This document shows, one piece after another, positions 5,444 to 51,856 of a stretch of 54,927 bases of DNA. The position numbers and the translations under genes are program-made. The stretch's first letter is position 1. Each line of letters begins with the position of its first letter. The stretch comes from Lachnospiraceae bacterium (GTDB lineage Bacteria; Bacillota; Clostridia; Lachnospirales; Lachnospiraceae), in NCBI GenBank assembly GCA_014803415.1, contig JAAVBZ010000004.1, positions 110,510 to 165,436 on the forward strand, read 5' to 3'. The notes under the pieces were generated by a model that saw only the letters and a list, made by a program, of their open reading frames with translations, was not told the origin of the DNA and did no database searches.

Positions 5444-5468
5444 AAATAAATGCTGAAAACAGTAGCTG

Positions 5469-5515
5469 AAAAAATCCTTGCGTTGTACTATTTAAATTCC
5501 TCGCAAGGATTTTTT
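5469..5515 (+). terminator. Rho-independent terminator of the beta-helix/GPH operon
   Basis: A perfect 14-bp stem, AAAAAATCCTTGCG (5469-5482) with CGCAAGGATTTTTT (5502-5515), closes a 19-nt loop about 25 bp after the symporter stop. The A-tract and T-tract make it usable in both directions. Confidence 0.88.
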
Positions 5516-5556
5516 CCGGCAGCATCTTTGCCGGTATCTGTAGCGTTGTATCATAA

Positions 5557-26331: not shown

Positions 26332-26496
26332 ATTGATCTTCCCGCACCTTTCCGGACATACTTCTGTTTTCTAGTTCTATTTCACAATCGCTTATATTCT
26401 TTAATTATAAAATACTTGAAAATCAGGAAATATTATAGTACCATAAGTGACAGATTATTATCTTTAAATGACATTATTTCCTATGGAGAAATATTT

Positions 26497-35521: not shown

Positions 35522-36823
35522 TCAATGCGACGCCGTACTGATGGCAAGTACCGCCATATATGGTCTTCCCGGCAAATGAATTTCCGTTTCGCCCAAAGCT
35601 CCTTCGGCAATGATCTGTCTCGTCATATTCCATGTGTCGATCAATTCAATCCGATAAGTCTTATCTTTCGGAAGCACTATCGTGTCTTTCACAGAACATC
35701 TCTGATCATAATAATTGAGATACACTTCCTCCCCACAATGACCGGCATAGCAGTGTTCAAGCGCAAAATGAATATGCTTATCTTCTTCTGTCATCATCGC
35801 TATTGCTTTTTGGAATCCTGCGAACATCGGCTGGCTCTCCAGATCCTGCCGTACTTCTTCCGGAAGATTGTCAAATGTCCCGGCCTCAGTCAATATCGGT
35901 TCGATGGGAGACGGCAGTTCATATACAATATCCTTAAGGAACTGAATACGCGCCGGACTATTTCCCTTCAGCACACCGCCCTTTGCCCACCATACGATCT
36001 CATGTTCATTGTCCATAAAGGTTTCTCCATGGGTACAATAGGCTCCGCTTGTGATCACCTTCCAGAACCGTGCAGTCATCTCTTCTCCAGACAAGCATCC
36101 CCAGAATTCCGGAAGATCGCCCTCGTAACAGCACTCATCCACCATGATCGGCTTTCCAAATTTACTAACAACATCGGGAATATCTGCAAAGCGTTTGGTC
36201 TGGTAAGAGCCATGAGTGATATTTGGTCGTGACACATCCCATGGCACGAAACAGTTATGGTTTGATATCAGATGATTATTCGGATTGTGAGATGCCACAA
36301 ACTCCTCGATCTCCTTCCAATCCTCCATTGATTTGTTTCCCAGACATAGGTCATATTCATTTGCAAGACTCCACCAGATATTTTTCAAATGTCCCAGCCG
36401 ACTGATACAATAATCCAGATATTTTATATTATCTGCCTGGCTAAACTGAGAGAATCCCCAGTTGTCATACGGGTGAAATAGGATCAGATCACACTCAATT
36501 TCCATATCATCCAGCCTTTTGATGATATCCTCCAGATGGTTCCAAAACCCTTCGCAAGGCCTTTCAACATCCCACGAACCGTCCCCATTTCTCTCAAACG
36601 GATAGAACTGCGGTTCATTGTTGTTATATTGATAATGCTTTGGAAAGACACACATACGCACTTTATTAAATGGGGATTTTTCCAATGTATGCAGTGTCTC
36701 ATCGATCAGGCTTTCCTCCTGATGAGCCAACGCATATACTGTCGTTCCGAAAGGATAAAAATATGTTCCATCCTCATACTCAAAATGTGTCCCAACCGCT
36801 CTTACCATTCCATGTCTGCCCAT
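35522..36823 (-). CDS. DUF4038/DUF5605 TIM-barrel glycosidase, GH140-like
   Basis: 433 residues without a signal peptide. The start at 36823 has AAGGAGGAG 5 nt upstream; 36844 is an in-frame alternative without it. The N-terminal block YFYPFGTTVYALAHQEESLI and FNKVRMCVFPKHY is that of DUF4038 barrels, the fold of GH140 apiosidases. Candidate catalytic Glu residues are in IWWSLANEYDLCLG (acid/base) and IMVDECCYEGDLP (nucleophile). The last 90 residues (VYLNYYDQRCSVKDTIVLPK ... LPGRPYMAVLAI) form a DUF5605-type beta domain. The substrate is unproven. Neighbours are the esterase upstream and the GH106-like gene downstream. Confidence 0.8.
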   Translation of the reverse strand: MGRHGMVRAVGTHFEYEDGTYFYPFGTTVYALAHQEESLIDETLHTLEKSPFNKVRMCVFPKHYQYNNNEPQFYPFERNGDGSWDVERPCEGFWNHLEDIIKRLDDMEIECDLILFHPYDNWGFSQFSQADNIKYLDYCISRLGHLKNIWWSLANEYDLCLGNKSMEDWKEIEEFVASHNPNNHLISNHNCFVPWDVSRPNITHGSYQTKRFADIPDVVSKFGKPIMVDECCYEGDLPEFWGCLSGEEMTARFWKVITSGAYCTHGETFMDNEHEIVWWAKGGVLKGNSPARIQFLKDIVYELPSPIEPILTEAGTFDNLPEEVRQDLESQPMFAGFQKAIAMMTEEDKHIHFALEHCYAGHCGEEVYLNYYDQRCSVKDTIVLPKDKTYRIELIDTWNMTRQIIAEGALGETEIHLPGRPYMAVLAISTASH

Positions 36824-37069
36824 AAAGTCTCCTCCTTCAAACATCAGTGATCTTTGCCTCTGGTATATATTAATAATATACTTTTTTTCTTTCCATTTCT
36901 ACTCCGGATTCTCACTCTATTTTCACTTACAAGAAACAGCAGCCAGAATTTCACAGATATTTCCCCTCATTTTACGTTATTACTGTTTACTCTGCCAGGC
37001 TGCAACCATTTCAGTAAATCTGTCATCTTTTCTAAAGATCGAAATTGCAGCATATATCCATTCTAAATA

Positions 37070-38566
37070 TCAATCTTCGTAAAAATGCAAATTTTCCCAA
37101 AGTTTCATCAGTTCTCTACGTTCAGGCAGCGACCGTGTCACAATTTCTCTGTCATAGATTCGGACAGGAGAATCATATCCAGTATACTCAGGCCATTCTT
37201 CCCCATCAGGAATACCATATTTTACAAAATTTACCCAGCCCATATGCACACTGTTCACCAGATTTTCTACCACGTCCTCCGGTTCTCCCTCAAACTGCAT
37301 TTTGGGGAAACCTTCCTTATAGTAATTAAAATCACAGGGCAGATCCATGGCATGACTGCAAAGCATGCCTGTTTTCCTGCCAAATTCCGTGATATACTCA
37401 TAGCGGTACATCCACACAGAACCATGCTCTTTCTGCGCCTGTGCTGTCTTGATGGCGGGTACCTGAAAAGGCAGATCTGTACCGAAGTTAATAAATGCTT
37501 CGTCCACACCATTGACCTCGCCATGGCTACCAGACTCATAATAAGCCTTCGCCTCCTCGAAACAGTTCTCCAGGCTGTTATTCTTGAACAATTCCTGAAT
37601 CATCTCCCAGGAATTGGGGAAGAAAGTATTCTCCTTACGGACAAAGAAGGTTCCTTCATTCAAATTATTCCCAATCATCAGCCGGATGCCTTTAGCGCAT
37701 CCCTTTTTTATGGCTTCAATGGGACGCTCCGGCAACAAATCATCCACCACGGGAGATGGAAGATTAATGCCCGGATAGCGGTATTGATGCATTTTCGCAA
37801 TAAAATCATTACCCTTTAGTACCTCGAAAGGATCAATATCCGCAAGCTTATACAGATCCGCTTCTGTCCAGCCCATACCTTCCATGAACAGCTCAATATG
37901 CTTTTTGTTCATTTCATGGGAGAATACACCGTTCGGCAGCCCGCTGGAAGCAATCACCTGCTGGAAAGTTCCTTTCAGGTCAGGAACCGCCATCAGCATA
38001 ACTGCTGATGTGCCACCCGCAGACTCTCCCGAAATGGTCACCCGATCCGGATCCCCGCCGAAAGCCGAAATGTTCTTATGTATCCACTGCATAGCTGCAA
38101 TATGGTCAGAAAGTCCGCAGTTGCTTTCAAATCCATCACATCCGGGATAGCCCGTAAAATCATAAAAGCCCCAGACATTCAGACGATACTGGAAGCTGAC
38201 ATAGACAATCCCATTACGCACAAAGGAATCCCCCACAATCAATGGGTCTGATGCGCTTCCCGTATTATAGCCGCCCCCATGGATAAAGACCAGAACCGGC
38301 AGATTCTCGCCCTCCAGCGGTCTGCGGATGTTAAGTGTCAGGCAGTCTTCGCTTCCCATAATCTGGTCTCCCATTTTCTGCACTGCCGGGGAGCCATACT
38401 CCTTCGCGTCCAGGACTCCCTCCCAAGGTTCAATGGGCACTGCCCTCTTTAGGCGCAGCTTACCCACAGGAGGCTTGGCATAGGGAATTCCCAGAAATGC
38501 AATCTGCCCCTCTTTTTCATATCCTCTTATTTTTCCAGTGGTAGTTTCTACAATATGCTGTTCCAT
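37070..38566 (-). CDS. Type-B carboxylesterase (para-nitrobenzyl esterase family)
   Basis: 498 residues from the ATG at 38566, which has AAGGAG 6 nt upstream; an ATG at 38614 is in frame but has no ribosome site. The family order is complete: GKIRGYEKEGQIAFLGIPYA, EDCLTLNIRRP, the oxyanion stretch VFIHGGGYNTGSA, and nucleophile Ser in TISGESAGGTSA. The acid lies in GNNLNEGTFFV and the catalytic His in CSHAMDLPCDF. There is no signal peptide, so it acts in the cytoplasm. Among glycosidase genes it may remove acetyl, feruloyl or other acyl groups from imported glycosides (inference). It lies between the GH140-like gene and the REC-less regulator, all on the minus strand. Confidence 0.92.
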   Translation of the reverse strand: MEQHIVETTTGKIRGYEKEGQIAFLGIPYAKPPVGKLRLKRAVPIEPWEGVLDAKEYGSPAVQKMGDQIMGSEDCLTLNIRRPLEGENLPVLVFIHGGGYNTGSASDPLIVGDSFVRNGIVYVSFQYRLNVWGFYDFTGYPGCDGFESNCGLSDHIAAMQWIHKNISAFGGDPDRVTISGESAGGTSAVMLMAVPDLKGTFQQVIASSGLPNGVFSHEMNKKHIELFMEGMGWTEADLYKLADIDPFEVLKGNDFIAKMHQYRYPGINLPSPVVDDLLPERPIEAIKKGCAKGIRLMIGNNLNEGTFFVRKENTFFPNSWEMIQELFKNNSLENCFEEAKAYYESGSHGEVNGVDEAFINFGTDLPFQVPAIKTAQAQKEHGSVWMYRYEYITEFGRKTGMLCSHAMDLPCDFNYYKEGFPKMQFEGEPEDVVENLVNSVHMGWVNFVKYGIPDGEEWPEYTGYDSPVRIYDREIVTRSLPERRELMKLWENLHFYED

Positions 38567-38665
38567 CTCCATCTCCTTTTCGATTTCTGCAATTTTCTGT
38601 TTATCCTCTCTCATTTTTATTGTTTCAAAAGCTAGTATACCGCATTTTCTGCTTCATCAAGCGTT

Positions 38666-39781
38666 TCAGTTTGACTGCCCTTCCCGAAATGCATTTGGGG
38701 TCAGTCCTGTCTTAGCCCGAAAAAAGCGCCCAAAATACCCCTGACTGGTAAAACCAAGCTGATCTGCAATTTCCTTCATCGACAGTTTCTTTTCTGCCAG
38801 AAGCTGCTTCGCAGCCGACAACTTCAAATCATTGATATATTGCAGAATCGTGACACCTTCCTTCTTTTTGAATATTCTCAACAGATACTCCTGGCTAAAA
38901 TGCACCTGCTCCGCAAGATTGTACAGGGAAGTATCCCCACCGAGATTGTCCACAATATATTTTTTAATCTGATTTACCACATCTTCTGTCTGCTTCTCCA
39001 CATTCTGGTTTCTAAGATCAAAAATATTTTCTGCCACATGGCGCAAATACCCGAAGGCATCCTGCCAGTTCGTATGAAGAGAAACATTGTACAGGTTCAT
39101 AATACCAACCCGTAATGCCAATTCCTCATACAGCCCCAATCGTTTAATCCAACCAATCAGCTTAGAACTAATCGTGCAATATATTTCCAGTGCAAATAAG
39201 TCATGCATACTCCGAATGCTCTGCAAATCCATTTGCAGTTCCCTCAGCAGTGACAGCGTATTTTCCTCATCCCTGCCCTCCAGCCAATACTCCAGTTTCC
39301 AGACTTTTTGCAAAAGTTCCTGCTTCCTGCTTTCCGGCAGGCTGTCGCCGGCACTATCCCCCTTATGCAATTTCTTCAACACCAATTCTTCCTCATCCAT
39401 CCATATTGTCTGGTCACAGATTCCCTTAAATTCCTGCAATAGCTGGTTAAATGTGATGGAACTGGCGCCAATCAGAATAGATGTGGTTTGAGAAAGATTT
39501 TTTTTCAGAGCCTTCTGAAACAGTTCTCCTGCCCCTATCAGCATCTGGATGATACTTGCCTCCCTTAAAAGCTTCCTTGGCTGCAGCAAGATTACAACAT
39601 AATTCATACTATACTCGAAAAAGGTTCCCTGCATGAAATCCAGAAAATGTCGCTCCACCAGCTTGTAGATATCCTGTATGCGCCCAAATTGCTCCTGATA
39701 GCTTTCACAATACCACGTTTCATGTCTCAATAGTACATAATACAGCGGTTTCTCTGGATTTAACGGAATATTAAGCTTCAT
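38666..39781 (-). CDS. YesN-type AraC response regulator lacking its receiver domain
   Basis: 371 residues. The C-terminal AraC domain is intact (SLYNLAEQVHFSQEYLLRIF; SMKEIADQLGFTSQGYFGRF; LTPNAFREG), and the 270 residues before it match the linker region of YesN-type regulators of about 530 residues. The receiver domain with its phosphoacceptor Asp is missing. Coding potential continues upstream in frame, without a start, as LFNGYRGLSQLTEELAMKL, up to a junction near 39842 where it meets the permease stub in another frame. GAGGAG happens to lie 6 nt before the ATG at 39781, and translation may be coupled to the permease stop at 39796. It may be inactive or phosphorylation-independent. It is the likely reader of the promoter modules at 41921, 47514 and 51793. 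Confidence 0.82.
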   Translation of the reverse strand: MKLNIPLNPEKPLYYVLLRHETWYCESYQEQFGRIQDIYKLVERHFLDFMQGTFFEYSMNYVVILLQPRKLLREASIIQMLIGAGELFQKALKKNLSQTTSILIGASSITFNQLLQEFKGICDQTIWMDEEELVLKKLHKGDSAGDSLPESRKQELLQKVWKLEYWLEGRDEENTLSLLRELQMDLQSIRSMHDLFALEIYCTISSKLIGWIKRLGLYEELALRVGIMNLYNVSLHTNWQDAFGYLRHVAENIFDLRNQNVEKQTEDVVNQIKKYIVDNLGGDTSLYNLAEQVHFSQEYLLRIFKKKEGVTILQYINDLKLSAAKQLLAEKKLSMKEIADQLGFTSQGYFGRFFRAKTGLTPNAFREGQSN

Positions 39782-39795
39782 TGCCAGCTCCTCTG

Positions 39796-40062
39796 TCAGC
39801 TGTGAAAGCCCACGATATCCATTGAATAAATCTGCCAGAAACCCTTCATACCAAAGATGTATTTAAAATTATCCAACCCTACCCACTGGGAAGTAAAAAA
39901 TCCTTTCATTCCCCCAGATGGCACAAAGTCCTGGAAGGAAATGACGATACCCACCATAGGAAGATAAGAGAAAACAATTAATAATATGATTGCAGGGAGC
40001 AGCATCACATGCAATGGCCACTCACGCTTTAACATTGCGCCCCAACTCATTTTCTTTTTCAT
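39796..40062 (-). pseudogene. Truncated LplB/YteP-type ABC sugar permease
   Basis: Only 88 codons remain of a permease of about 300. The N-terminus is typical: WPLHVMLLPAIILLIVFSYL, then PMVGIVISFQDF and TSQWVGLDNFKYIFGMKGFW. After GFWQI the sequence shifts to YSMDIVGFHS and stop, unlike any permease. In another frame the same DNA encodes the linker of the YesN-type regulator. The rest of this permease, the second permease (LplC/YtcP type) normally next to it and the regulator's receiver domain are all absent. AAAGGAGAAGG gives a good ribosome site. One membrane helix remains, so no transport function is expected. Confidence 0.85.
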
Positions 40063-40108: not shown

Positions 40109-40146
40109 TTAGTGAGCAGAACGAAGTATCTCGCTCCACTCACTAA
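40109..40146 (-). promoter_or_regulatory. Strong mRNA hairpin between binding protein and permease
   Basis: In the minus-strand transcript TTAGTGAGTGGAGCGA pairs fully with TCGTTCTGCTCACTAA (13 Watson-Crick and 3 G-U pairs) around a 6-nt loop. No T-tract follows, so it is unlikely to be a full terminator. Such hairpins after binding-protein genes usually stabilise or attenuate the message so that the binding protein is made in excess. Confidence 0.72.
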
Positions 40147-40154
40147 AAGATTGC

Positions 40155-41864
40155 TTACTTGCTGGTATACCACTCATTCAGTTCCTCTGTAATCTTGTCA
40201 AGTCCCAGAGTATTCAATTCCTGAAGGAAATCGTCAAAGCTATCTGTAGACTCGATTCCCATGATTACCTTTGTGTAGTACTCCATTACTTTATCTGTCA
40301 CTGTGGACATCTTCTGTCCCATAGTTTGAGTAGGACCAGTAGTGAACTCATCCATCACATACAGTTGATTATCATAGTAGTAATTAATCGTCTGGAATGC
40401 GGACATGTCATTGCCAAAGGTCTTCATACTACCGTAACCGCCAATGATATCGCCGCTTAAATACTTCTGAATATCATCGTAGTATACCATCTGCTCTTCA
40501 TTCAGAATAGAACTGTCATTTGTCTCTAACGCTTTCGCAACCTGATTGGAGTTATTCAGATTCATCAACGGATCTCCTGTCTTTAACATTACCCAGTGTC
40601 TGGGGAAACTCATTATGCCAGAAGAATCCTCTACCATATATTCGTTACGTTCTTCACCTGAGAATGCAAACTTATCAACCCAGAAATTCAGCATTCTGAC
40701 TACGGCTTCCGGATGCTCACAGTTTTTGCTGACTACCACATAACCACCACCATCTTCCAGCGAAAGAGCTGTTTGTGTCTTTGCCGGAGAACCAGTTGCA
40801 GAAGGGATGGGAATTGTAACCCAATCCGCATTAATGTCATTTTCGACAGTAGCGTTTAACGGCCAATTCGCATTCCACATCAGACCATATTGAATACCTG
40901 CACGTCCTGAAGCCGCTGCTTCTGAGGCCTTTACTTCATCATTTGAGGAAAAATCTGTATCAATCAACCCCTCCTGATACATCTTGGCAATGTAGTCCAA
41001 AGCCGCTTTACTTTCTTCCATGGCAGAACCATACTGCAACTTGCCAGTTCCATCATCCACCCATATTGTAGGATACGCTCCGAAGCCGTTAAAAAGCCCC
41101 ACTGCATCCCCAAGTCCTTTCGAAAGGAAATTGTTGTGGAACACCATGCCAATGGTATCGTCCTTCCCGTTTCCATCGGGATCCTGATCCCTAAATGCAA
41201 TCATCACGCTGTACAAATCCTCCATGGTCTCAGGCATCTCCAGATTCAGCTTCTCCATCCAGTCTCTCCTGATCCACAGCACCGGCAATTGGTCAAGAGA
41301 GGATGTCAGTAATGGAATCGCTATGACGTCTCCGCCATATGTAGCAGATTCCAGCGCTGCTGTTCCTTCACTGGTAGTCCAGCCCCACAGTTCTTCGGAA
41401 GCATACTTTTCAAATATCTTGCCAATATCCCGATTAATCAGGTCACTCTTTGCCAGCAGGGACAATTGAGCACTGTTCACCAACATAAAATCAGGAATCT
41501 CGCCGGAAGCAATTGCCACACTCTTTTTCTGCTGGGAATCATCCGCCGTATTAGCTGCATACCATAACCAGTCAATAGAAATATTGGTTTCTTCTTTCAT
41601 TCTATTGTAGTAAACACTGTTCATAGCCTCCTCCTGATCCCAGTCGTCCATGATAGCAGGAGAGATTTCAAAGTAAGATGTCAGAGTCACGGGCTCATCA
41701 TATTTAAATCTCGGATCCACCTCTTCGTCCATGTTGATGCTACTGTTACCTGTCGCCTCCCCGCTATTTCCACTGTCATTATTTCTGCTGCCACTGTTGC
41801 CGCAACCTGCCAGACTTCCTATAACCATCGCTGCTGCCAACATAAGAACCAGTTTTCTTTTCAT
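40155..41864 (-). CDS. LplA/YtcQ-type sugar-binding lipoprotein of an ABC importer
   Basis: 569 residues. The signal sequence KRKLVLMLAAAMVIGSLAGC ends in a lipobox (LAGC), followed by a Ser/Asn/Gly linker, so the protein is a lipoprotein on the outer face of the membrane. Length and pattern (DWLWYAANTADDSQQKKSVA, then RDQDPDGNGKDDTIGMVF and GYVVVSKNCEHPEAVVRM) match the large oligosaccharide-binding proteins paired with LplB/LplC permeases. CAAGGAGGAAGAAGT precedes the ATG. It is the first gene of a transcript that continues into a permease stub and the REC-less regulator, so no membrane channel for it is encoded here. Its promoter carries the shared module at 41921-41984. Confidence 0.92.
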   Translation of the reverse strand: MKRKLVLMLAAAMVIGSLAGCGNSGSRNNDSGNSGEATGNSSINMDEEVDPRFKYDEPVTLTSYFEISPAIMDDWDQEEAMNSVYYNRMKEETNISIDWLWYAANTADDSQQKKSVAIASGEIPDFMLVNSAQLSLLAKSDLINRDIGKIFEKYASEELWGWTTSEGTAALESATYGGDVIAIPLLTSSLDQLPVLWIRRDWMEKLNLEMPETMEDLYSVMIAFRDQDPDGNGKDDTIGMVFHNNFLSKGLGDAVGLFNGFGAYPTIWVDDGTGKLQYGSAMEESKAALDYIAKMYQEGLIDTDFSSNDEVKASEAAASGRAGIQYGLMWNANWPLNATVENDINADWVTIPIPSATGSPAKTQTALSLEDGGGYVVVSKNCEHPEAVVRMLNFWVDKFAFSGEERNEYMVEDSSGIMSFPRHWVMLKTGDPLMNLNNSNQVAKALETNDSSILNEEQMVYYDDIQKYLSGDIIGGYGSMKTFGNDMSAFQTINYYYDNQLYVMDEFTTGPTQTMGQKMSTVTDKVMEYYTKVIMGIESTDSFDDFLQELNTLGLDKITEELNEWYTSK

Positions 41865-41920
41865 ACTTCTTCCTCCTTGTAATTTTACCGCCCTGCGGTA
41901 TTATTTTTCTTTATGAAAAT

Positions 41921-41984
41921 ATCATAATAGGAAACCGGGATATCAACAATGTGACTTTCTTGATATCCCGGTTCAAAAATTGAC
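41921..41984 (-). promoter_or_regulatory. Shared promoter module, copy A (binding-protein operon)
   Basis: Minus strand: box GTCAATTTTTG (41974-41984), 24 bp containing ATCAAGAAAGT, -35 TTGTTG (41944-41949), 17 bp, -10 TATGAT (41921-41926). TCAA repeats 20 bp apart fit an AraC-type activator touching the -35. Start of transcription would be about 50 nt before the ATG at 41864. The same spacings recur at 47514-47577 and 51793-51856. Confidence 0.75.
41933..41973. repeat. Perfect 14-bp inverted repeat across the copy-A promoter
   Basis: AACCGGGATATCAA (41933-41946) and TTGATATCCCGGTT (41960-41973) are exact inverse copies around 13 bp. One arm covers part of the -35 box and spacer; the other is just upstream. 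Comparable arms of different sequence occur at 47528-47564 (12 bp, one inserted base) and, less well, at 51806-51844. Confidence 0.8.
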
Positions 41985-42026
41985 CTATTCCAAGGCTTTA
42001 TCTTCTGTATGCAATAAGTTTCTCAA

Positions 42027-42539
42027 CTATCCTTTCGAAATCTCTCTTCCCACCTTTTGCATAGCTGTCCGACCATACTCGTGCACCTCAATTTTATTTC
42101 CATCTGGATCATGAAACCACATTACTTTATTACGGTCAAGGCTAGGCTGTGGAAAAATATCAATATTTCTCTCCGCTCCCTTGTCCACCAGTTCCTGGCA
42201 AAACGCTTCGATATCATCCACCACTATAGCAAAATGAGTATATCCGTATTTTGTGGAATCTGAAAGATTTTCCAGACTTGCGTTTACTTCATTGAACAGC
42301 TCAATAAAATATCCATCTAACCATTCCAGATATACAATCCATCTTACATCCTTAATTTTTTCCAGGCTCTTCAATTCGTCAGGCTTCATTTTCTCCAGTC
42401 TTTCCTGTTCCTTCGGAATCATATCGCCGTAATACAGAGAAAATTTTTCCTTGCATCCTAGAATGTTCTCATAAAATCTGACACTCTCATCCAAATTCCT
42501 GCAGTTAAATCCAATATGTGCGTTCGCCTGTATAATCAT
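42027..42539 (-). CDS. VOC (glyoxalase/dioxygenase superfamily) protein
   Basis: 170 residues from the ATG at 42539; a TTG at 42554 is in frame but has a poorer ribosome site. Two betaalphabetabetabeta units of the vicinal oxygen chelate fold are visible: ANAHIGFNCRNLDESVRFYE, FIELFNEV, YTHFAIVVDDIEAFCQELVD and MWFHDPDGNKIEVHEYG. The His/Glu positions expected for metal binding (AHIGF, IELF, THFAI, IEVHE) are present. The reaction is unknown; it could be an epimerase, lyase or dioxygenase acting on a sugar derivative. It is the last gene of the GH1-Gfo/Idh-GH36-VOC operon, 40 bp after GH36. Confidence 0.85.
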   Translation of the reverse strand: MIIQANAHIGFNCRNLDESVRFYENILGCKEKFSLYYGDMIPKEQERLEKMKPDELKSLEKIKDVRWIVYLEWLDGYFIELFNEVNASLENLSDSTKYGYTHFAIVVDDIEAFCQELVDKGAERNIDIFPQPSLDRNKVMWFHDPDGNKIEVHEYGRTAMQKVGREISKG

Positions 42540-42579
42540 CTTCTTTCTCTCCAATTCTACTGTATCTTTATAAATTTAT

Positions 42580-44847
42580 TTACACTTCCACAATGTGAAT
42601 CTGCCATGCCTGATAGTTTTCCAATGCTTCCGGGATTACCAGTCCGCATTGCTGCAGTGCTGCCCCAGTGATCGTTTCCTCATTTTTATAACCATATGGC
42701 ATATGTTCTTCAAACCACTTTCTTCTCCAGCCTTGTATGTTTCCCATATCGTCCATATTTAAGGACATCCGGTAACTTGCCCCTGCATTTAATCCCTGCA
42801 CTTTTACAATAACAGGAGCTACATTTGCTTCCACATGATGGTATACTGCGCTTACCAGCACTTCCCTTCCTTCCGGGTCTGCCATTTCCCATACAGTACA
42901 TTGACTATCCGTAGGCGCCTGCAGCCGATAATATTCACCGTACTGAATTAAATCATAATACTCTTTAAACCTGCCAATCTGCTGCCTTACCATTTTCTTC
43001 TCTTCCTCAGACAATTTCGTAACATCCAGTTCATAGCCAAAGGTTCCTGCCATGGCCACGCAACTTCTGGTCGAAAAAGGAGTAATGCGACTGGTTTGAT
43101 GATTGGGCACTGCTGAAACATGGGATCCCATCGCAGACACCGGATATCCAAAAGAAGTCCCATACTGGATCCCTAACCTTGCTATGGCATCTGTATTATC
43201 ACTGCACCATATCTGGGGAGTATAGTACAGCATCCCTGCATCAAACCGTCCGCCTCCGCCACTGCATCCCTCAAACAAAATGTGAGGAAACTCCACAGTC
43301 AACGTCTCTAATACACGGTAGAGCCCTAACACATACCGATGGGCAAATTCCCTCTGACTCAACATGTCAAGCGCCATACTGTATTTATCGCAGATACTTC
43401 TGTTAAAATCCCACTTCACATAGCCGATTGGCGTTTCTTCAAAAATAGAGGACAGCCGTCCAATAATATAATCCTGCACATCCTCTCTTGAAAAATCAAG
43501 AATCAGCTGGTTTCTGCTAAGATCAGGCTTTCTTCCCGGTATCATGACTGCCCATTCCGGATGCTTACGGTACAAATCACTATCCTCTGAGATGCATTCC
43601 GGCTCAAACCAGAGACCAAACTTCATTCCGCAACCCACGATTTTTTCCGCCAGTTCTTTCAATGTGCACTCAAGCTTCTTTTCATTAGGAAACCAGTCAC
43701 CAAGCCCCGAATTACCATCATCCCGCTTTCCAAACCAGCCATCATCAAGCACAAAAAGTTCAATTCCTAATTCCGCAGCACTCTTTGCTATTGTCACTAA
43801 CTGTTCCCCTGTAAAATTAAAATAGGTAGCTTCCCAGTTGTTGATAAGTACAGGACGCCGTTTCTCTTTCCATTCTCCACGGCAGATGTTTTGTCGTATG
43901 GTCTTATGCAGATTCCTGCTAAGTGCGCCAAACCCTCTGGAACTGTAAGTCATCATGACTTCCGGTGTATCAAATTGCCCGCCCGGCTGTAGGTTCCACT
44001 CAAAATTATCCGGATGAATACCGCAAATCAGCCTTGTCTGGTTTATCTGATCCTTTTCAGCCTCCATCAGAAATTCCCCACTGTAAAGAAATGAAAAACC
44101 ATAGCACGCTCCTTTATTTTCGTCTGTATTTCTTTCACAGACAATGGCAAAAGGATTGTAATGATGGCTGGAAGCCCCACGCACACTGCCTATGGCATGA
44201 ATGCCATGCCCCAACGCATCTCTTTGTATATTTCTCTCCCTGGCGTGCCCACCATAAAAAGTAAGCCACTCATAGTCACCATTTATCCAATCCATATTTA
44301 TACTGGCTGCTTTCTGCAAAACAATCCTGTCTGCCCCTCGATTAATAATCTTCACTGCTCGTGTAATGATGTCGTTCTCAAAAAGCACTCCGTACAGAAG
44401 TTGTACTTCCACTTCTGAAACCAAATCTTCCAAAATAATCTCAAGTGTATCTGCTTCCTCTTCCTTTGCATAGACTGCCGGAAGCCCTGGTATTGCATAT
44501 TTGCCCCTGCTGATCTGATACTCCTTAAACTGGAGCGAAGCCGCAAAACTTCCATCCGAATTTTGTATCTTCAATGCACTGATACGATAGTCACCTGTTC
44601 CATAGCAACTATATTCCTGTGGAAGAACATCTAACGAATAATCGCTATGATCCCTCCCCATCTCATAGGGATTACCTGAAAACCCTCTGCTTTTCATGCA
44701 AATAGCATAGGACTTATCGCTTTCATCCGTCCGTTCCCCATAATATATATGGAGGAGACTTCCAAGACTGTCTGCCTTCATTTGATATGTTGTATTTCTC
44801 GTATGCAGAGTAAAAAGTCTCTTTTCTGCGTCTATTATAACCGACAT
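42580..44847 (-). CDS. Alpha-galactosidase, glycoside hydrolase family 36
   Basis: 755 residues from the ATG at 44847, where GGGGTGA lies about 7 nt upstream; an ATG six bases earlier almost touches that site. No signal peptide. The N-terminal beta-supersandwich (YEMGRDHSDYSLDVLPQEYS) is followed by the TIM barrel. The substrate motif is LFVLDDGWFGKRDD, the nucleophile Asp is in YVKWDFNRSICD and the acid/base Asp is in IWCSDNTDAIARL. The C-S-G-G-G-G-R-F-D-x-G-M block is typical of GH36. It should remove alpha-galactose from raffinose-type or galactomannan-type oligosaccharides or alpha-galactosides. It is the third gene of the operon led by GH1 at 47438. Confidence 0.94.
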   Translation of the reverse strand: MSVIIDAEKRLFTLHTRNTTYQMKADSLGSLLHIYYGERTDESDKSYAICMKSRGFSGNPYEMGRDHSDYSLDVLPQEYSCYGTGDYRISALKIQNSDGSFAASLQFKEYQISRGKYAIPGLPAVYAKEEEADTLEIILEDLVSEVEVQLLYGVLFENDIITRAVKIINRGADRIVLQKAASINMDWINGDYEWLTFYGGHARERNIQRDALGHGIHAIGSVRGASSHHYNPFAIVCERNTDENKGACYGFSFLYSGEFLMEAEKDQINQTRLICGIHPDNFEWNLQPGGQFDTPEVMMTYSSRGFGALSRNLHKTIRQNICRGEWKEKRRPVLINNWEATYFNFTGEQLVTIAKSAAELGIELFVLDDGWFGKRDDGNSGLGDWFPNEKKLECTLKELAEKIVGCGMKFGLWFEPECISEDSDLYRKHPEWAVMIPGRKPDLSRNQLILDFSREDVQDYIIGRLSSIFEETPIGYVKWDFNRSICDKYSMALDMLSQREFAHRYVLGLYRVLETLTVEFPHILFEGCSGGGGRFDAGMLYYTPQIWCSDNTDAIARLGIQYGTSFGYPVSAMGSHVSAVPNHQTSRITPFSTRSCVAMAGTFGYELDVTKLSEEEKKMVRQQIGRFKEYYDLIQYGEYYRLQAPTDSQCTVWEMADPEGREVLVSAVYHHVEANVAPVIVKVQGLNAGASYRMSLNMDDMGNIQGWRRKWFEEHMPYGYKNEETITGAALQQCGLVIPEALENYQAWQIHIVEV

Positions 44848-44868
44848 GATCATTCACCCCATGTTACT

Positions 44869-46038
44869 TTATCTTATTTCTCCACCTACGGTAATAAGGC
44901 TGGTTTCATCTTTGCCCGTGAGAACTGCCAACGGCAATGCACGTTTACAAGTAGAAAGCACCTCTATAAAGGAGCCATTCCTTTCATGGCTTTTTACCAT
45001 ACACTCCTGAATATCCATCACATGGTAAGCACGCTCCTTAGAAGCCCTCGCTTCACGTCCTTCCTGTATCGCCAGCGCCATGTCAGCCACACCTACGCCG
45101 CGGGAATCCGTATTGAATCCATATGGATTATCGGGTATAATCCGTTTTGGTGTTTCCGCCAAAGAAAAATCGGCAGTATTTTCATATATGCTTATCTGCC
45201 CAGTGAACCAGTCAGGACATCCTAAATACATAATGCCTCTATTTCCATATATTGCAAAATACGTCTGGTCAAAAAAAACGCTGTCCGCATTGATTGACAG
45301 GGTACCCGTGATTCCATTCTCTAATTCAAGGATTGCATAAAACTGGCTTTCATTGGGAGATGAGAAGGTTTCCCCATAATGCGGTGACGGCTCAAACTGA
45401 TTAACATGGGTAGGATACGGTGCCTTGATATTTGCGCTCACCCGATGCACTGGCCCCAACAAATTGATGAGCATCGTCAGATAATAAACTGAATAATCCA
45501 AAATAATCCCTCCACCCGGACGATTCAGATAGTCCATCGCTGAAAGCAACCTGTCATTATCGCGGTTTCCTACCATAGCGAAAGATGTAATCGTTCCGAG
45601 AACCCCTGAATCAATCAAATGTCTGGCATTCTGCGCCCATCCGGCGAAAAACGTATCTGGTGCGCATCCTAGACACTTTCCTTTCTCATCTGCCAATTTA
45701 CACAATTTCGAAGCAGACGCCGTATCAAGTGCAAAGCATTTCTCTGTATATGCATGCTTTCCCGCATTCAGAGCCTTCGTAATAATTTCTTCATGGGCAC
45801 CGGGCGGTGTCAGATTCAGTACAATGTCAATATTCTCATCTTCCAGAATCTGGTCAATCGTTGTAGCCCGAATGCCATATTTCTCAGCCAGTGCCTTCGC
45901 CCCTTTCCCGCTTCTGTCTGCAATGGCATCCACTTTTAAAATATCGAATTTTGTCATCAGGGAATCCATATACGTCCTGCTAATCATACCAGCACCAATG
46001 ATTCCAACATGTACAGGTAGAATTTGATTGTTTTCCAT
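44869..46038 (-). CDS. Gfo/Idh/MocA family oxidoreductase
   Basis: 389 residues, cytoplasmic. The Rossmann fold starts with HVGIIGAGMISRTYMDSLMT (GxGxxS-like). The family motif EKP appears as EKCFALDTASA, keeping the catalytic Lys. NRPGGGIILDYSVYYLTMLI carries the D-x-x-x-Y/H region of the active site. Members oxidise or reduce sugar hydroxyls with NAD(P), sometimes as the first step of a glycosidase-like oxidation/elimination route. The gene lies between GH1 (38 bp upstream) and GH36, so it probably acts on the released sugar or on the glycoside itself. TAAGGAGGCAAT precedes the ATG. The substrate is not readable from sequence. Confidence 0.9.
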   Translation of the reverse strand: MENNQILPVHVGIIGAGMISRTYMDSLMTKFDILKVDAIADRSGKGAKALAEKYGIRATTIDQILEDENIDIVLNLTPPGAHEEIITKALNAGKHAYTEKCFALDTASASKLCKLADEKGKCLGCAPDTFFAGWAQNARHLIDSGVLGTITSFAMVGNRDNDRLLSAMDYLNRPGGGIILDYSVYYLTMLINLLGPVHRVSANIKAPYPTHVNQFEPSPHYGETFSSPNESQFYAILELENGITGTLSINADSVFFDQTYFAIYGNRGIMYLGCPDWFTGQISIYENTADFSLAETPKRIIPDNPYGFNTDSRGVGVADMALAIQEGREARASKERAYHVMDIQECMVKSHERNGSFIEVLSTCKRALPLAVLTGKDETSLITVGGEIR

Positions 46039-46076
46039 ATTGCCTCCTTAAAATCTCTATCATGCTGAGTTGTAAG

Positions 46077-47438
46077 CTATGCCTGCGGCACTGCATCAAT
46101 CAGTAACCCATTTTCACGGGTTACCTGCGCATACCATTTTGCGCTTTTCTTGGGAATCCTCTCCAATGTTTCGTAATCCGTATAGTAAAGCCCGTACCGT
46201 GCGGCATAGCCTGCAGACCATTCAAAGTTATCCATCAGGGACCACAAATAGTAACCTCGCACATCAATCCCTTCTTCAATTGCCTTATGCAACCAGATAA
46301 GAACATTTTTCACATACTCAATTCTTGACTGGTCATCCAAGTTTGCCTCCCTGCCATCCGCATCATCAATGGGCACACCATTTTCAGTAATATAAATCGG
46401 AATATCCACATGATACTTTTCCACCAGCATATGTAACACATCCTTCAGTGCCTCCGGATGGTTTTCTGGCCTATCCTGATAGTTTCCTCCCGCTTTTCTT
46501 GTCTTTTCCATTTCACGTATTTCATCAGCATTGTCATATAGCCCATTGTAGAAATTCAGCCCATAAAAATCCAACGGCTGGCAAATAGTCTCAAAATCAC
46601 CGTCCTGTATATCAGGCGTCAGATGGTTAATTTCAAAATAATTCATCAGCTCTTTTGAATATCCTCCCAGAAAGAGTGGATGGAGGAACATCCCATATCC
46701 GCGGATTTCATTGCTTGTGACGGCAATGGACTGGTCTTCCGCATTACCTTCTCTCGCCGGATAATGCTTCCATACATCTACCACAATACCAATACTGGCA
46801 TGTGTAAACATATGTTCCCTGAAAAGCTTCACACATTCCCCATGGCACAGCAGGAGATGGTGCAGAGCCTGCCTCGCATATTTTTCATCCTGAAGCCCCG
46901 GTGCAAAAAATCCCTGCGCATAGCCTACATAAGTTGCGATGGGTTCATTAAATGTCGCCCACATATCTATATCTTCGCCAAAGTTATCCAAGAGGACAGA
47001 CGCATATTCGCAAAACCATTTAACTATTTCCCTGTTTCCAAATCCTCCTTTCATTTGCAGAGCATAAGGCAAATCCCAGTGATACATCGTTGCATTAGCC
47101 CGAATTCCATTTTCTTTTAACAAAGCAAGGAGTTTTTTGTAATAGATAATCCCTTTCTCATTGACTTTTCCCGTCCCTTCAGGTAAAATTCTGGACCATG
47201 AAAAAGAAAATCGGTAAGATTTTACTCCCAGTTCTTTCAGCATTTCCACATCGCGCTCCACCTTATGGTAGGAGTCACAGGCAATATCCGGTAGATATCC
47301 ATTTTTTATTTTTCCGGGCAGTCTCGAAAACACATCCCAAATAGAAGGTCCCCGCCCATCTTCAAATACTGCTCCTTCAACCTGGGCTGCGGCGGTTGCT
47401 ACTCCCCATGTAAAGCTTTCAGGAAATTTAATTTGCAT
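46077..47438 (-). CDS. Glycoside hydrolase family 1, beta-glucosidase type
   Basis: 453 residues, the usual GH1 length, without a signal peptide. N-terminal signature FPESFTWGVATAAAQVEGAV; acid/base Glu in WATFNEPIATYVGYAQG; nucleophile Glu in IPIYITENGVPIDDADG; YLWSLMDNFEWSAGYAARYG near the C-terminus is the sugar-binding Trp region. All catalytic motifs are canonical, unlike the shorter GH1 at 11101, whose NEP reads NEA. AAGGAGGATTATAAAT precedes the ATG. It is the first gene of the GH1-Gfo/Idh-GH36-VOC operon, driven by the shared promoter module at 47514. It should hydrolyse a beta-glucoside or beta-galactoside taken up by the local or another importer. Confidence 0.94.
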   Translation of the reverse strand: MQIKFPESFTWGVATAAAQVEGAVFEDGRGPSIWDVFSRLPGKIKNGYLPDIACDSYHKVERDVEMLKELGVKSYRFSFSWSRILPEGTGKVNEKGIIYYKKLLALLKENGIRANATMYHWDLPYALQMKGGFGNREIVKWFCEYASVLLDNFGEDIDMWATFNEPIATYVGYAQGFFAPGLQDEKYARQALHHLLLCHGECVKLFREHMFTHASIGIVVDVWKHYPAREGNAEDQSIAVTSNEIRGYGMFLHPLFLGGYSKELMNYFEINHLTPDIQDGDFETICQPLDFYGLNFYNGLYDNADEIREMEKTRKAGGNYQDRPENHPEALKDVLHMLVEKYHVDIPIYITENGVPIDDADGREANLDDQSRIEYVKNVLIWLHKAIEEGIDVRGYYLWSLMDNFEWSAGYAARYGLYYTDYETLERIPKKSAKWYAQVTRENGLLIDAVPQA

Positions 47439-47513
47439 ATTTATAATCCTCCTTATTTATTCTGCAACAATCCGTCCGGCAAAATACGGAGCCAGGCGGA
47501 TGATTTTATGGGT

Positions 47514-47577
47514 ATCATAAAATAATAGGAGGAAACAAGCAATGTGACATTCTTGATTTCCTCCGACAAAAATTGAC
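47514..47577 (-). promoter_or_regulatory. Shared promoter module, copy B (GH1 operon)
   Basis: Minus strand: box GTCAATTTTTG (47567-47577), 24 bp containing ATCAAGAATGT, -35 TTGCTT (47537-47542), 17 bp, -10 TATGAT (47514-47519). An inverted repeat GGAGGAAACAAG (47528-47539) / CTTGATTTCCTCC (47552-47564) spans the -35. The ATG is at 47438. Confidence 0.75.
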
Positions 47578-47611
47578 TTCTTTACAAACCCACAGCTATG
47601 CCCAGATTCTT

Positions 47612-49345
47612 TTACAGCACCACAGACATATCCAGTCTTAATACTACCTTAAGTCCTCCAAAATCACTGTTCTCAAGCAATATCCCACTGTCCTCTCCGT
47701 AAGCAAGCTTCAAGCGCCTCTCAATATTTGACAGGGCATGACCTGCTGCACGCCCCTGATAATCCCTGATGTACTCTCGCATTTGCTCCAGCTTCTCTTC
47801 CTCTACACTGCTGCCGTTATCCTCTATTATAATGTTCAGAAAGTCCTCGTCCATCTCATAACCGATACGAATACATCCATCTTTCAGGATTGATGACATA
47901 CCATAATTATATGCATTCTCTACAACAGGCTGCAGGATCAACTTAGGCACCCGAAAAGAAACTGCATTCTCCGGAAGTTCCCCTATGCTGACGGAAATTT
48001 TATCCCCGAAACGCATCTGTTGGATGTCAATATAGTTCATCATATGCTCTACCTCTTTGGAAAGCGAAATGTTCTGATCCACTTCCTTATTCAGGAAACG
48101 ATAGTATTTCGCCAGAGAAGTAACAAACTGCACAATCTGCTCATAGGACTCGTTCTTCGCCATGATGCGGATAAGGTAGAAACTATTATAGAGAAAATGA
48201 GGATTAATTTGAGACTGGAGCTGCATTAGCTCCGCGTTTTGCAAAAGTCGGCTCTGCTCCTTCACATTTTCTATCAGCTCCTGAATACGTTCCACAGTCC
48301 TGTTGAAAGAAGAATAGATGTACTGGAACTCATCCTGATATTTATGGGAAATACGGATGCTCAAATCCCCATCTTGCAACTTTTCAAATGCCTGCACAAC
48401 CTTCTGCAATGGCTTATTCACAGTGGTGTTTGTCTGAAACAACATCAGGAAGAACATGACGCTGACCAACAGTATAACACCCCCCATCACCAAAAGTGCA
48501 ATTATTGTGGAAGTGTCAAGCCAACTACCATTACGATATGCTACTAACGTGATACCGTACTCTGGAATCGTTTCTGAAATGAACAAATACTTCTTTCCCT
48601 GGCACCTGCCATTTCTCAGAAAGCTGTCAGGGCACCCGGCCTTCTTCCAAGCCTGACGCCAGCACTCCATGAGTTTATCGCATCCCTCCGGAATCTGTAT
48701 CAACCCCTCGCCAGTGCTAAGCATGAAAAATCCTCCCGACTGCTTTTCTACAGACAAAGGTTCCAGAAGTTCACTCAGATAGTTTTCTGACAATGTAACC
48801 CGCACACCATAATCAGGCACATAATCCTCCACAATAGAACGGATCAGGGGATACCACAGTTCCATCCGAATCTGCCTCTGAACATAAATTAATTGGCGCG
48901 CAGTTTCAGTCTCCCTCCGTCTGGCGGGAACGCATTCCTTCCTGCTAAGCTCTGTGAGCGTACTTAACTCCATCTTCTGTTCTGGAAACAGTAGCTCAAT
49001 TTCTTCAATGATGTTATTCATAGATTGAAAGCTTCGCATACTCTCAACCAATCCCCGTCCCAGCTGCGATCTTGTGTAAACATCCAAATTATTTCCCTGA
49101 CTAAGGTTCATAGTTCGGCTGTCACTGATCAGATTCCTCTCCATATCGGACACGATGTCCAACTGCGTCTTTAAACTCTCTCTCCCCTGTCGCATGGTAG
49201 CCGCCATGGCATTAATCCTCACATTCCTCTGTGAAGCGGCATAGGTCAGGAAAATTGCGATGGTGCATGCATAGAGAACTATCATGGCAGCAACAAACAA
49301 AAGGTACAGTTTTTTAAATACACTTACCATCTTCGTCTTTCCCAT
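47612..49345 (-). CDS. YesM-type sensor histidine kinase with degenerate ATP-binding motifs
   Basis: 577 residues. A transmembrane helix (LYLLFVAAMIVLYACTIAIF) and a second (IIALLVMGGVILLVSVMFFL, about residue 290) flank an extracellular sensor. A HAMP domain follows (KVVQAFEKLQDGDLSIRIS), then the phosphoacceptor box LQSQINPHFLYNSFYLIRIM. The N box is QPVVENAYNYG. The G1 box reads DNGSSVEE (normally DNGxG) and the G2 box GHALSNIERRL (normally GxGLxN), so ATP binding may be weakened. Kinases of this type sense oligosaccharides with YesN-type partners. The gene probably shares a transcript with the GH78-like gene 72 bp upstream. Its expected partner is the REC-less regulator at 38666. Confidence 0.9.
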   Translation of the reverse strand: MGKTKMVSVFKKLYLLFVAAMIVLYACTIAIFLTYAASQRNVRINAMAATMRQGRESLKTQLDIVSDMERNLISDSRTMNLSQGNNLDVYTRSQLGRGLVESMRSFQSMNNIIEEIELLFPEQKMELSTLTELSRKECVPARRRETETARQLIYVQRQIRMELWYPLIRSIVEDYVPDYGVRVTLSENYLSELLEPLSVEKQSGGFFMLSTGEGLIQIPEGCDKLMECWRQAWKKAGCPDSFLRNGRCQGKKYLFISETIPEYGITLVAYRNGSWLDTSTIIALLVMGGVILLVSVMFFLMLFQTNTTVNKPLQKVVQAFEKLQDGDLSIRISHKYQDEFQYIYSSFNRTVERIQELIENVKEQSRLLQNAELMQLQSQINPHFLYNSFYLIRIMAKNESYEQIVQFVTSLAKYYRFLNKEVDQNISLSKEVEHMMNYIDIQQMRFGDKISVSIGELPENAVSFRVPKLILQPVVENAYNYGMSSILKDGCIRIGYEMDEDFLNIIIEDNGSSVEEEKLEQMREYIRDYQGRAAGHALSNIERRLKLAYGEDSGILLENSDFGGLKVVLRLDMSVVL

Positions 49346-49417
49346 ATCCCATCCTCCAGACTTTTACATAACATATGCTGCCTCTTCATGATTCCGCTAT
49401 TCCGCATCCCGTAATTA

Positions 49418-51757
49418 CTATTCCAATACTGTATTATCTCCGGCTTTCAACGCAACACCAACTCCGTCAGCCTTCAGGAATCTCCCACTCATTCCTTCCG
49501 GAAGCGTCAGCTCATACCTCATTCTATCCTCATCATGTGTGTAGCAAAATCCAATCTCGCCATACTCAGTAAGCATTTTCCCCTCCAGATCAGGCACATA
49601 CTCCATGTGAGGGCAAACTTCTATATAAGAAGGCCTTCCAGACTCCCTGCGGATACCGGCAATAACGCTGAGTAATTCATACATAGGAAGTGCGCTCCAC
49701 GCATGGCATTCGCTTCTGGCATTAAATGGCGTCTCGGGACATGTGGTACAGTGTTCGTCCAATAACTTAATCCACCAGTTCATCTGCTGACTGGTCAAAT
49801 CATAACATCCTGCCTTTTCGCAGGCACGGAACAGTTCATAGCAGGTAGAAAAATAGCAGCGCAGGACATCCTTTTCCTCAAAGGTTCTACGCAATACTTC
49901 TCTGGCCACTTCTCCGGATAGCATACCGTTCAGTACCGCCCAACTCTGGGCATGCTGTGAAAATTCCTGATAGGAGGGTCCCTCCCGGTACATCCCCCTC
50001 TCAGTATCCCAGCACAACTCCTGAATCCGATCCGTGATAGCTTTCTGTCTGGTTCTATACTCCTCCGCCAGCCCTGTCCGTCCCGTTACCTCGTTGATTT
50101 CAGCTCCATTCAAAAGCGCTATCCCATACATCAGGTTGATAATCGTAGAAGGTCCTTCGGAAACCGCACCCGGACGTCCGGCCGATTCCTGCCAGCTCTC
50201 CTGCCAATCCACAAAATCCCAATACCCCAGATTCTCCACCAGCCCTTGCGCACCGATGTGCCGGTCATAATATTCCAGGATCATGTCCACATCTGCACGG
50301 TACTGCTTCAGAATCTCCCTGTTCCCAGTACGCCGATAGTACTCTAAGAGCATAAAGATATAGTGCAACGAAAATGTGGAAATTATCTGCTTCGGATTAC
50401 TTGGCGCCCTCCCCTGAATCAGCCCCACCGGAAGCATGGAATCATGAAAATCCTGAAGTGCTTTGCGGGCCAGCTTTGTGTCCACACTGCACACGTAGGT
50501 GAAGAGAGCCTGCAGCCTGGTATCCATAGGATATTGCATCTGCTCCCAGAAAGGACAGTCCATATAAGTCTCCATCATACAATTTTGCAGGGTGCGGACG
50601 CACATCCCATAGAGCTGTTCCACCCAAAGAGCACTGGATTTTACATAGGAATCCGGATTTAACGGATAACCTGTCTCCAAAAACTGAGGACGATAGAAAC
50701 ACACTGCATCGTCCGCAGCTTCTATCTCTATCTGTAAAAAGCGCATGGTTCGATAAAGGAAGGGCTCATAAATCAATTCTTCTCCATTTAAAATGATACT
50801 GTCCACCTGACCATTCTTTCCAATCTCTCCATTGATGTAATCATCCCGTTTTACGCCATCAATGCCTTTCGAAAATTTTTCAAAATAGATAAAGATGATC
50901 CGGGCGCCATTTCCACCTTCTATCCGGTAGCGCATGAAAGCATTGAACAGATTTACGCCATCAAACAGCAGTTTGCAGCGTTCCCTCGGCTTCACCACAA
51001 TAAAATCAGACATTCCCATGACCGGCTTCCCCAACTCCCTGCGCAACATATTCGGACATTCATACATGAGCGGAATCGGTCTTTCCTCCATCATGAAAGT
51101 TTTGAGTACGCCAAAGTGCATCTCAAATCCGCTCTTCACCAGCTCTATCTTCTCTCCCTCCTGCCAGAACGTATCATCGAAATCGACTTGTTTCCAGTCA
51201 CAAGGAGTGCGCCTATAATCAATTTTCTCCGTGAATGCCCCCATATTTCCATTCACTACCGGCTCCTTTGTCAAATGATAAGTATTGTCCAGCCAAACCT
51301 TCCAAGAAGCCTTTCCGGTAGTCACATCCGCCAGTACATTGCCAGATGCATCCTTTATAATGCCCTCTATTGCCAGTCTGTGCCCCGCAGGCAATGTCGC
51401 AACGCTGTTAAGTGGCGCCCTGTTATCACTCGGACCTTCCTTTACATACATACTGTCGCATAAAAGCACCTGAACTGCCATCACGTTTTTACCTGACTTC
51501 AGATATTTTCCCACGTTCACCGTCTCGTAATACTGCCTATATCTATTGCTACGGCAAGGACCAGACAGTACCGGCTCCCCGTTGACCCAAAAGCGGTATT
51601 TAGAGTTAGCCGAGATGTCCACCGTAAGTTCCGCTTCCTGCTCCAGTTCCAGATTTAAGCGGTAATAAACGAATCTTCCATTCATATCGCCCTGATAAAT
51701 TTTCTTTTCCTCAATTTCGGCTCTCGGTACTCCAAGCCACAATGCTTCGTTCCACAT
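49418..51757 (-). CDS. GH78-like alpha-L-rhamnosidase family protein with divergent active site
   Basis: 779 residues from the ATG at 51757 (GGAGG 7 nt upstream); a GTG at 51763 is too close to that site. No signal peptide. It opens with a jelly-roll sugar-binding domain (AELTVDISANSKYRFWVNGE) and continues with an (alpha/alpha)6 barrel like that of GH78. Where GH78 has D-C-P-x-R-x-E-R-x-G-W, this protein reads MDCPFWEQMQYPMDTR, and a later acidic block is FVDWQESWQESAGRPG. The fold assignment is good, but the specificity may not be rhamnose. It has its own shared promoter module (51793-51856) and is probably followed on the transcript by the YesM-type kinase. Confidence 0.8.
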   Translation of the reverse strand: MWNEALWLGVPRAEIEEKKIYQGDMNGRFVYYRLNLELEQEAELTVDISANSKYRFWVNGEPVLSGPCRSNRYRQYYETVNVGKYLKSGKNVMAVQVLLCDSMYVKEGPSDNRAPLNSVATLPAGHRLAIEGIIKDASGNVLADVTTGKASWKVWLDNTYHLTKEPVVNGNMGAFTEKIDYRRTPCDWKQVDFDDTFWQEGEKIELVKSGFEMHFGVLKTFMMEERPIPLMYECPNMLRRELGKPVMGMSDFIVVKPRERCKLLFDGVNLFNAFMRYRIEGGNGARIIFIYFEKFSKGIDGVKRDDYINGEIGKNGQVDSIILNGEELIYEPFLYRTMRFLQIEIEAADDAVCFYRPQFLETGYPLNPDSYVKSSALWVEQLYGMCVRTLQNCMMETYMDCPFWEQMQYPMDTRLQALFTYVCSVDTKLARKALQDFHDSMLPVGLIQGRAPSNPKQIISTFSLHYIFMLLEYYRRTGNREILKQYRADVDMILEYYDRHIGAQGLVENLGYWDFVDWQESWQESAGRPGAVSEGPSTIINLMYGIALLNGAEINEVTGRTGLAEEYRTRQKAITDRIQELCWDTERGMYREGPSYQEFSQHAQSWAVLNGMLSGEVAREVLRRTFEEKDVLRCYFSTCYELFRACEKAGCYDLTSQQMNWWIKLLDEHCTTCPETPFNARSECHAWSALPMYELLSVIAGIRRESGRPSYIEVCPHMEYVPDLEGKMLTEYGEIGFCYTHDEDRMRYELTLPEGMSGRFLKADGVGVALKAGDNTVLE

Positions 51758-51792
51758 ATCCACACCTCCCAGAATCTATTATTCATAACTCC

Positions 51793-51856
51793 AGCATACA
51801 AACAGACCAGGATATAATCAATAAAACTTTCTTGATACCCCAGTTCAAAAATTGAC
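51793..51856 (-). promoter_or_regulatory. Shared promoter module, copy C (GH78-like gene)
   Basis: Minus strand: box GTCAATTTTTG (51846-51856), 24 bp containing ATCAAGAAAGT, -35 TTGATT (51816-51821), 17 bp, -10 TATGCT (51793-51798). The predicted leader to the ATG at 51757 is about 30 nt. Confidence 0.72.

Follow-up and report, generated by a model that had tools for sequence, protein, structure and literature searches.

Three 64-bp modules, which we call c1, c2 and c3, lie on the minus strand of a 54,927-nucleotide stretch from the genome of a gut bacterium of the Lachnospiraceae (assembly GCA_014803415.1, contig JAAVBZ010000004.1, positions 110,510 to 165,436; the whole stretch is referred to as the window), each ahead of an operon of one and the same locus. 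We predict that they are promoters which depend on an activator and together make up a one-locus regulon under the control of the linked YesM/YesN sensor kinase and regulator pair, and judging from the sequence we consider this probable. Four observations carry the prediction: the fixed geometry of the modules, their conservation across genomes, their confinement to the locus and their linkage with the YesM and YesN genes.

The three modules share one layout, numbered here as columns 1 to 64. A distal element, GTCAATTTTTG, occupies columns 1-11, a proximal element, ATCAAGAA-N-GT, columns 21-31, and TTGNNN columns 36-41; after a further 17 bp comes a -10 hexamer at columns 59-64, reading TATGAT in c1 and c2 and TATGCT in c3. 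All three were found by both pattern search and profile. Module c1 (41921-41984, 60.4 bits) precedes the solute-binding protein (SBP) operon and has its distal element at 41974-41984, its proximal element at 41954-41964, its TTG or -35-like hexamer at 41944-41949 and its -10 at 41921-41926. Module c2 (47514-47577, 63.2 bits) precedes an operon encoding GH1, Gfo/Idh, GH36 and VOC proteins, with the corresponding parts at 47567-47577, 47547-47557, 47537-47542 and 47514-47519, and c3 (51793-51856, 51.4 bits), ahead of the GH78-like and histidine kinase operon, has them at 51846-51856, 51826-51836, 51816-51821 and 51793-51798. Over the 64 columns c1 and c2 agree at 46 positions, c1 and c3 at 50, and c2 and c3 at 43.

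Searching with GTCAATTTTTG-N9-ATCAAGAA-N-GT and allowing up to three mismatches gave three matches in the window, compared with none in 100 shuffles. The same search of the 4.26-Mb genome gave three matches, all with 0 mismatches, and the reversed control pattern gave 0. A sequence-only profile of ten sites scored the three modules at 63.2, 60.4 and 51.4 bits and the next match in this genome at 13.2 bits, among the 150 of 4474 first-look candidates that were scored. These results are far beyond chance and restrict the module, within this genome, to the one locus.

Scanning the GTDB collection for exact matches to GTCAATTTTTG-N9-ATCAAGAA returned 21 stretches. Seven of these (L021, L022, L024, L031, L036, L039 and L040), whose titles name Lachnospiraceae, Acetatifactor or Eisenbergiella porci, have the rest of the module as well, and we set the other 14 aside, as none has ATTG at columns 35-38 when read by eye. 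A second E. porci site, with 2 mismatches, turned up when the seven source genomes were searched, bringing the total to 11 modules in 8 genomes, with scores of 50.4-63.2 bits against 15.9 bits for the best other match in those genomes. Since the G471 and G475 modules are identical over the 64 bp, there are ten distinct sites. In all eight genomes the modules precede SBP, GH1, GH78-like or DUF5605 genes of the same locus, intact or decayed.

A wider regulon was also considered and rejected: when up to three mismatches were allowed, 98 relatives yielded, apart from this genome, 17 matches, each with the full three mismatches, and the reversed control yielded 16, which is chance level. The 36 genomes of the same genus, part of that scan, contained no further module. 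One further match, with 2 mismatches, was found in G538 among 116 relatives of E. porci. The 138 genomes of the genus to which G476 belongs held only the five known sites and a gapped match of 20.7 bits in G655 (L111 1501-1556, profile columns 6-63). A GH78-like protein of more than 50% identity was found only in this genome (G000) among 397 genomes of the family, and the locus is therefore rare.

The original prediction had described three minus-strand copies at these positions with this spacing, which proved exact at all three, and had placed ATCAAGAA-N-GT within the 24 bp that follow the distal element, where it is indeed present. The three operons that it named downstream agree with the gene annotation. 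Good support for its proposal of a local regulon sharing a single promoter type comes both from the confinement within this genome and from the homologous modules that head operons of the same locus elsewhere; the hundreds of unrelated genome matches that it named as a refuting outcome did not occur, the profile giving nothing above 13.2 bits besides the three copies.

Several features of the ten sites point to a promoter. Outside the scan pattern, T31 and the ATTG at columns 35-38 are fixed in all ten and TATRNT at columns 59-64 in nine; conservation is limited to the motif columns, the flanks and most spacer columns being near random. TCAA occurs at columns 2-5 and again at columns 22-25, 20 bp apart, in every site. 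The -35 boxes of the three modules are weak, and the proposed TTGNNN/-10 pairs were not listed by a generic sigma-70 scan because TTGNNN fits only about three of the six bases of TTGACA; the omission fits a promoter that needs an activator over a weak -35. The module travels with the locus and heads different first genes, and a promoter is therefore favored over a part of any one gene. A known cis-regulatory RNA family was rejected, as no Rfam model matched at its gathering score anywhere in the window.

With so weak a -35 (TTG only) and a fair -10 (TATRNT), RNA polymerase would need help. The two TCAA-bearing elements, one far upstream and one abutting the -35, would most likely be bound by the local YesN once activated by its partner kinase YesM, and YesN would then recruit the polymerase. 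We infer YesN as the binder, activation in preference to repression, the transcription starts and the substrate. The regulon would serve the uptake of a sugar oligomer by an ABC transporter and its cleavage by the GH78-like, GH1, GH36, esterase and GH106 enzymes.

Both regulatory genes lie behind modules within the locus; the genes given here with coordinates are on the minus strand. Behind c3 are the GH78-like glycosidase (49418-51757; its open reading frame is listed from a GTG at 51763, although orthologues suggest the ATG at 51757) and the YesM-type sensor histidine kinase (47612-49345; HAMP, His_kinase PF06580 at 4.1e-22 and HATPase_c), the partner kinase of the proposed pair. Behind c2 come the GH1 beta-glucosidase (46077-47438), the Gfo/Idh/MocA-type oxidoreductase (44869-46038), the GH36 protein of the melibiase family (42580-44853) and the VOC/glyoxalase-family protein (42027-42554). 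Behind c1 come the extracellular solute-binding lipoprotein (40155-41864), which has no Pfam match above cut-off and owes its name to the ABC permeases next to its orthologues, a broken ABC permease 1 (39796-40062), a YesN-type regulator without receiver domain (38666-39781), a carboxylesterase (37070-38614), which follows YesN in E. porci too, an apiosidase-like/DUF5605 protein (35522-36844) and a GH106 gene.

In E. porci one module is followed by DUF5605, YesM and GH78-like genes, the first being a 50%-identity homologue of the window's DUF5605 gene, and another by SBP, permease 1, permease 2, YesN and carboxylesterase genes. The order in G472 is YesM, GH78-like, module, SBP, permease 1, permease 2 and YesN, and there the module and the end of the GH78-like gene overlap. 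Elsewhere the locus is decayed: G476 keeps YesM and the GH78-like gene with only residues 332-558 of the SBP, G471 and G475 have a GH78-like gene without its first 157 residues, and G470 has one (to residue 581) fused to the end of YesN. In G473 only the first codons are present and the contig ends 388 bp on. Loci L062, L064, L066 and L076 have decayed in different ways within a single genus, in which 5 of 138 genomes have a full-scoring module, which suggests that the sugar system has been lost repeatedly. In G253, G647, G638 and on contig 29 of G471 there are GH78-like paralogues (46-49% identity) that have neither a module nor a close YesN.

Three small structures were seen along the way. 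A hairpin, TACCGC...GCGGTA, lies in the predicted SBP leader at 41886-41900, and a similar one was noted by eye in the G472 leader. A stem-loop at 40109-40146, between the SBP and permease genes (16-nt arms, 81% complementary), may lower permease expression relative to the SBP. A perfect 15-nt inverted repeat with 19 nt between its arms lies between listed open reading frames at 5468-5516.

The YesN-type gene of the window encodes 371 residues that match the E. porci YesN from about residue 169 of 538. Its C-terminal AraC-type helix-turn-helix (HTH) domain is present (HTH_18 at 8.1e-23, residues 289-367) and no N-terminal Response_reg domain was found in it; it is a truncated member of the response regulators that combine a receiver with an AraC-type HTH. 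The orthologue is full length in E. porci and G472, with Response_reg at residues 4-114 and the HTH at the end, and lacks the receiver in G470 as it does here. YesN is the AraC-type gene common to the loci of these four module genomes, among which the HTH region is 81-89% identical, compared with 57-83% for the middle region. On this basis an AraC/YesN-type activator is the best candidate for binding the modules.

A number of points weigh against this reading. No YesN orthologue was found at E 1e-40 in G471, G473 or G475, and G476 has only a 28% relative, so that four of the eight module genomes keep a module without a detectable YesN orthologue; we put this down to the visible decay of the locus, an explanation made after the fact. 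The regulator of this genome itself lacks the receiver domain. As to the module, 23 columns are invariant among the ten distinct sites, and columns 1-11 and 21-28 were the collection-scan pattern, so that their invariance is partly ascertainment. The repeat is short (TCAA), with only 4-6 of 11 columns in all agreeing between the distal and proximal elements, and its period is 20 bp, not 21. Furthermore, in six of ten sites columns 21-31 match the inverted strand of columns 33-43 (6-9 of 11) better than they match columns 1-11, and in most sites the inverted match is at least as good. As to the earlier suggestion that the TCAA half-sites suit an AraC-type activator, the spacing is found in all ten sites, but a direct repeat alone leaves the dyad symmetry described below unexplained. 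The regulator at 38666, proposed for binding tests, keeps its AraC-type HTH but has lost its receiver and follows a broken permease gene.

The loss of the receiver is part of a larger apparent deletion, joining permease 1 to YesN and spanning 39744-40062 on the minus strand. In alignment with E. porci, 2174 bp there correspond to 88 bp here, with about 2.1 kb missing: the SBP operon stops in permease 1, whose residues 1-78 match the 307-aa E. porci permease at 83% identity, and resumes in YesN, with the greater part of permease 1, the whole of permease 2 and the receiver of YesN left out. No relative of permease 2 in this genome exceeds 47% identity; permease 2 has therefore not been relocated. 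As the assembly has 48 contigs and an estimated 9% contamination, the deletion could be a misassembly. Unless the assembly is wrong, this genome is left without a complete local transporter, and if the deletion is real, the domain content predicts a local regulator that cannot receive phosphate. A separate deletion in G470 (L066 4445-5300) joins the GH78-like gene to a receiver-less YesN, and the open HTH frame is kept in both deletions.

The module also contains a dyad, centred on column 32, that links columns 11-31 with columns 33-53. In a scan of possible centres 32.0 was the best, with Watson-Crick pairs in 60 of 100 cells of the inner part and 60 of 110 of the outer; the next best inner count was 47 of 100, and the next best outer count 50 of 100. 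The core, AAWGT-N-AYATT, is symmetric, with pairs 27/37 and 28/36 being A-T in all ten sites. On the minus strand the dyad of c1 covers 41932-41974 (centre 41953), where a repeat search finds 20-nt arms that are 90% complementary; that of c2 covers 47525-47567 (centre 47546), with 18-nt arms, 78% complementary and unlike those of c1 in sequence; and the weaker one of c3 covers 51804-51846 (centre 51825), with 8 Watson-Crick and 4 G-T pairs of 15 (columns 11-25/39-53). In five sites (c1, c2, c3, the E. porci DUF5605 site and G476), a grouping chosen after the folds were seen, columns 12-20 pair in 43 of 45 cells (37 Watson-Crick, 6 G-T), compared with 17 of 45 in the remaining five, and the outer arms differ between the five sites yet remain complementary. 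G473 has a low shuffle p of 0.0025, arising from a different hairpin and not from the common register. Fold energy was dropped as evidence for a hairpin, as 393 of 3429 stretches of the window reach -17.5 and energies such as those of c2 and c3 are thus common.

The likeliest cause of these arms, though we would put it somewhat short of an even chance, is a mutational by-product: template switching at a quasi-palindrome imposed by the bound protein would copy one arm onto the other, harmlessly, in unconstrained spacers. Such an origin is compatible with the promoters being run by YesM/YesN. In its favor, the centre has a fixed symmetric core, and c1 and the E. porci SBP site share a left arm whose matching right arm is present only in c1. 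Template switching has been described as a process that both generates and repairs hairpins (PMC8794818). Ten sites are too few to tell the direction of change, and copying alone does not predict the pairing preference in the five dyad sites, where G-T outnumbers A-C mismatches 6 to 1.

Next comes a functional hairpin, formed in read-through RNA or as a DNA cruciform, that would lessen transcription running in from the upstream operon or adjust promoter activity; we regard it as unlikely, though worth weighing. One arm would lie in the spacer that separates the activator elements and the other in that separating the -35 from the -10, both of them free stretches of the promoter. The G-T excess is what would be expected of a coding-strand RNA, and five sites with different arms keep one register. 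Without any grouping, the observed pairing of 60 over all ten sites exceeds the best of 20,000 right-spacer shuffles (58), and the covariation score of 0.347 compares with a shuffled mean of 0.190 (0 of 500 shuffles reach it) and with at most 0.201 when slid. However, the hairpin is absent in five of ten sites, including that of G472, which has a full-length YesN, and in those five A-C outnumbers G-T 6 to 3. The contiguous-run test is weak (combined p 0.02), the number of pairs changed on both sides is unexceptional (42 of 500 shuffles reach 8), and since c1 and c3, and likewise c2 and G476, share arms by descent, there are about three independent cases. An intrinsic terminator is rejected: the score is negative for all ten sites (best -11.5), and a minus-strand terminator listing, which allowed only loops of 3-8, has none at the modules. 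Spacers in promoters are generally assumed to carry no such pairing constraint, and the covarying arms would matter the more for that if they were functional.

Slightly less likely still, in our estimation, is that the modules are promoters bound by another regulator, either an unlinked AraC-type protein or a dimeric regulator using the column-32 dyad. The symmetric core, with 32.0 as the best dyad centre, and the four module genomes without a YesN orthologue would be accounted for in this way. Against it, the better preserved loci share YesN as their AraC-type gene and all three modules of this genome are inside the YesMN locus. The window's other AraC gene (26416-27663) was tried as regulator and rejected, since at E 1e-30 six of the other seven module genomes lack a counterpart and G472 has one of 39%. 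We hold out little hope for a structural-switch promoter, in which a regulator dyad core would be combined with selected complementary arms in both free spacers, the same 43 bp serving as a direct repeat for activation or as a closed inverted structure over the -35/-10 spacer for silencing or for stopping read-through; if it were true, the receiver-less YesN proteins of this genome and G470 would be selected, signal-independent regulators. That the copies are recent duplicates without function is very hard to credit. The 50 of 64 bases common to c1 and c3 do include some in the arms, but only the motif columns are conserved, and this conservation extends across genomes with proteins of about 64-78% identity.

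Promoters activated by the linked YesM/YesN pair thus remain our preferred reading. The module is new as a motif (our literature search recognised no description of it) and is of a known kind of one-locus regulon promoter. YesMN-type pairs are common in gut Clostridia, and to our knowledge few binding sites have been assigned to them; the present site, sharply defined and accompanied by a candidate regulator, three target operons and orthologous loci, makes a directly testable case. The pneumococcal TCS07 (YesMN) and YesNM are likewise YesMN-type pairs tied to carbohydrate metabolism, but according to PMC11034029 the candidate motif for RR07 is CTWWWWWWAG and YesN has no clear repeat, neither of which resembles the present module. 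The AraC-family rhamnose regulators of Bacillales, Bacteroides and Enterococcus groups resemble our case in that their predicted sites, upstream of operons for sugar use, are direct repeats spaced by some two helical turns; their period is 21 bp as against 20 bp here, the sequences differ, and the relevant sections of PMC3870299 do not state that they are response regulators. Another close system is XydS/XydR of Clostridium cellulolyticum, a YesMN-type pair whose AraC-type regulator is linked to, and controls, glycosidase genes beside ABC transporter genes (PMC3572039, in the sections on these genes). The common sequences listed for XydR targets in Table 3 of that report, where no consensus is fixed, differ from the present module, and the XydS/XydR genes are described there as not subject to their own regulation, in contrast to the present locus, in which modules precede both the kinase gene and yesN. 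A receiver-less derivative of XydR acts without inducer and binds its target promoters, as the same sections relate (PMC3572039), and by analogy the receiver-less YesN of this genome may act without a signal from its kinase.

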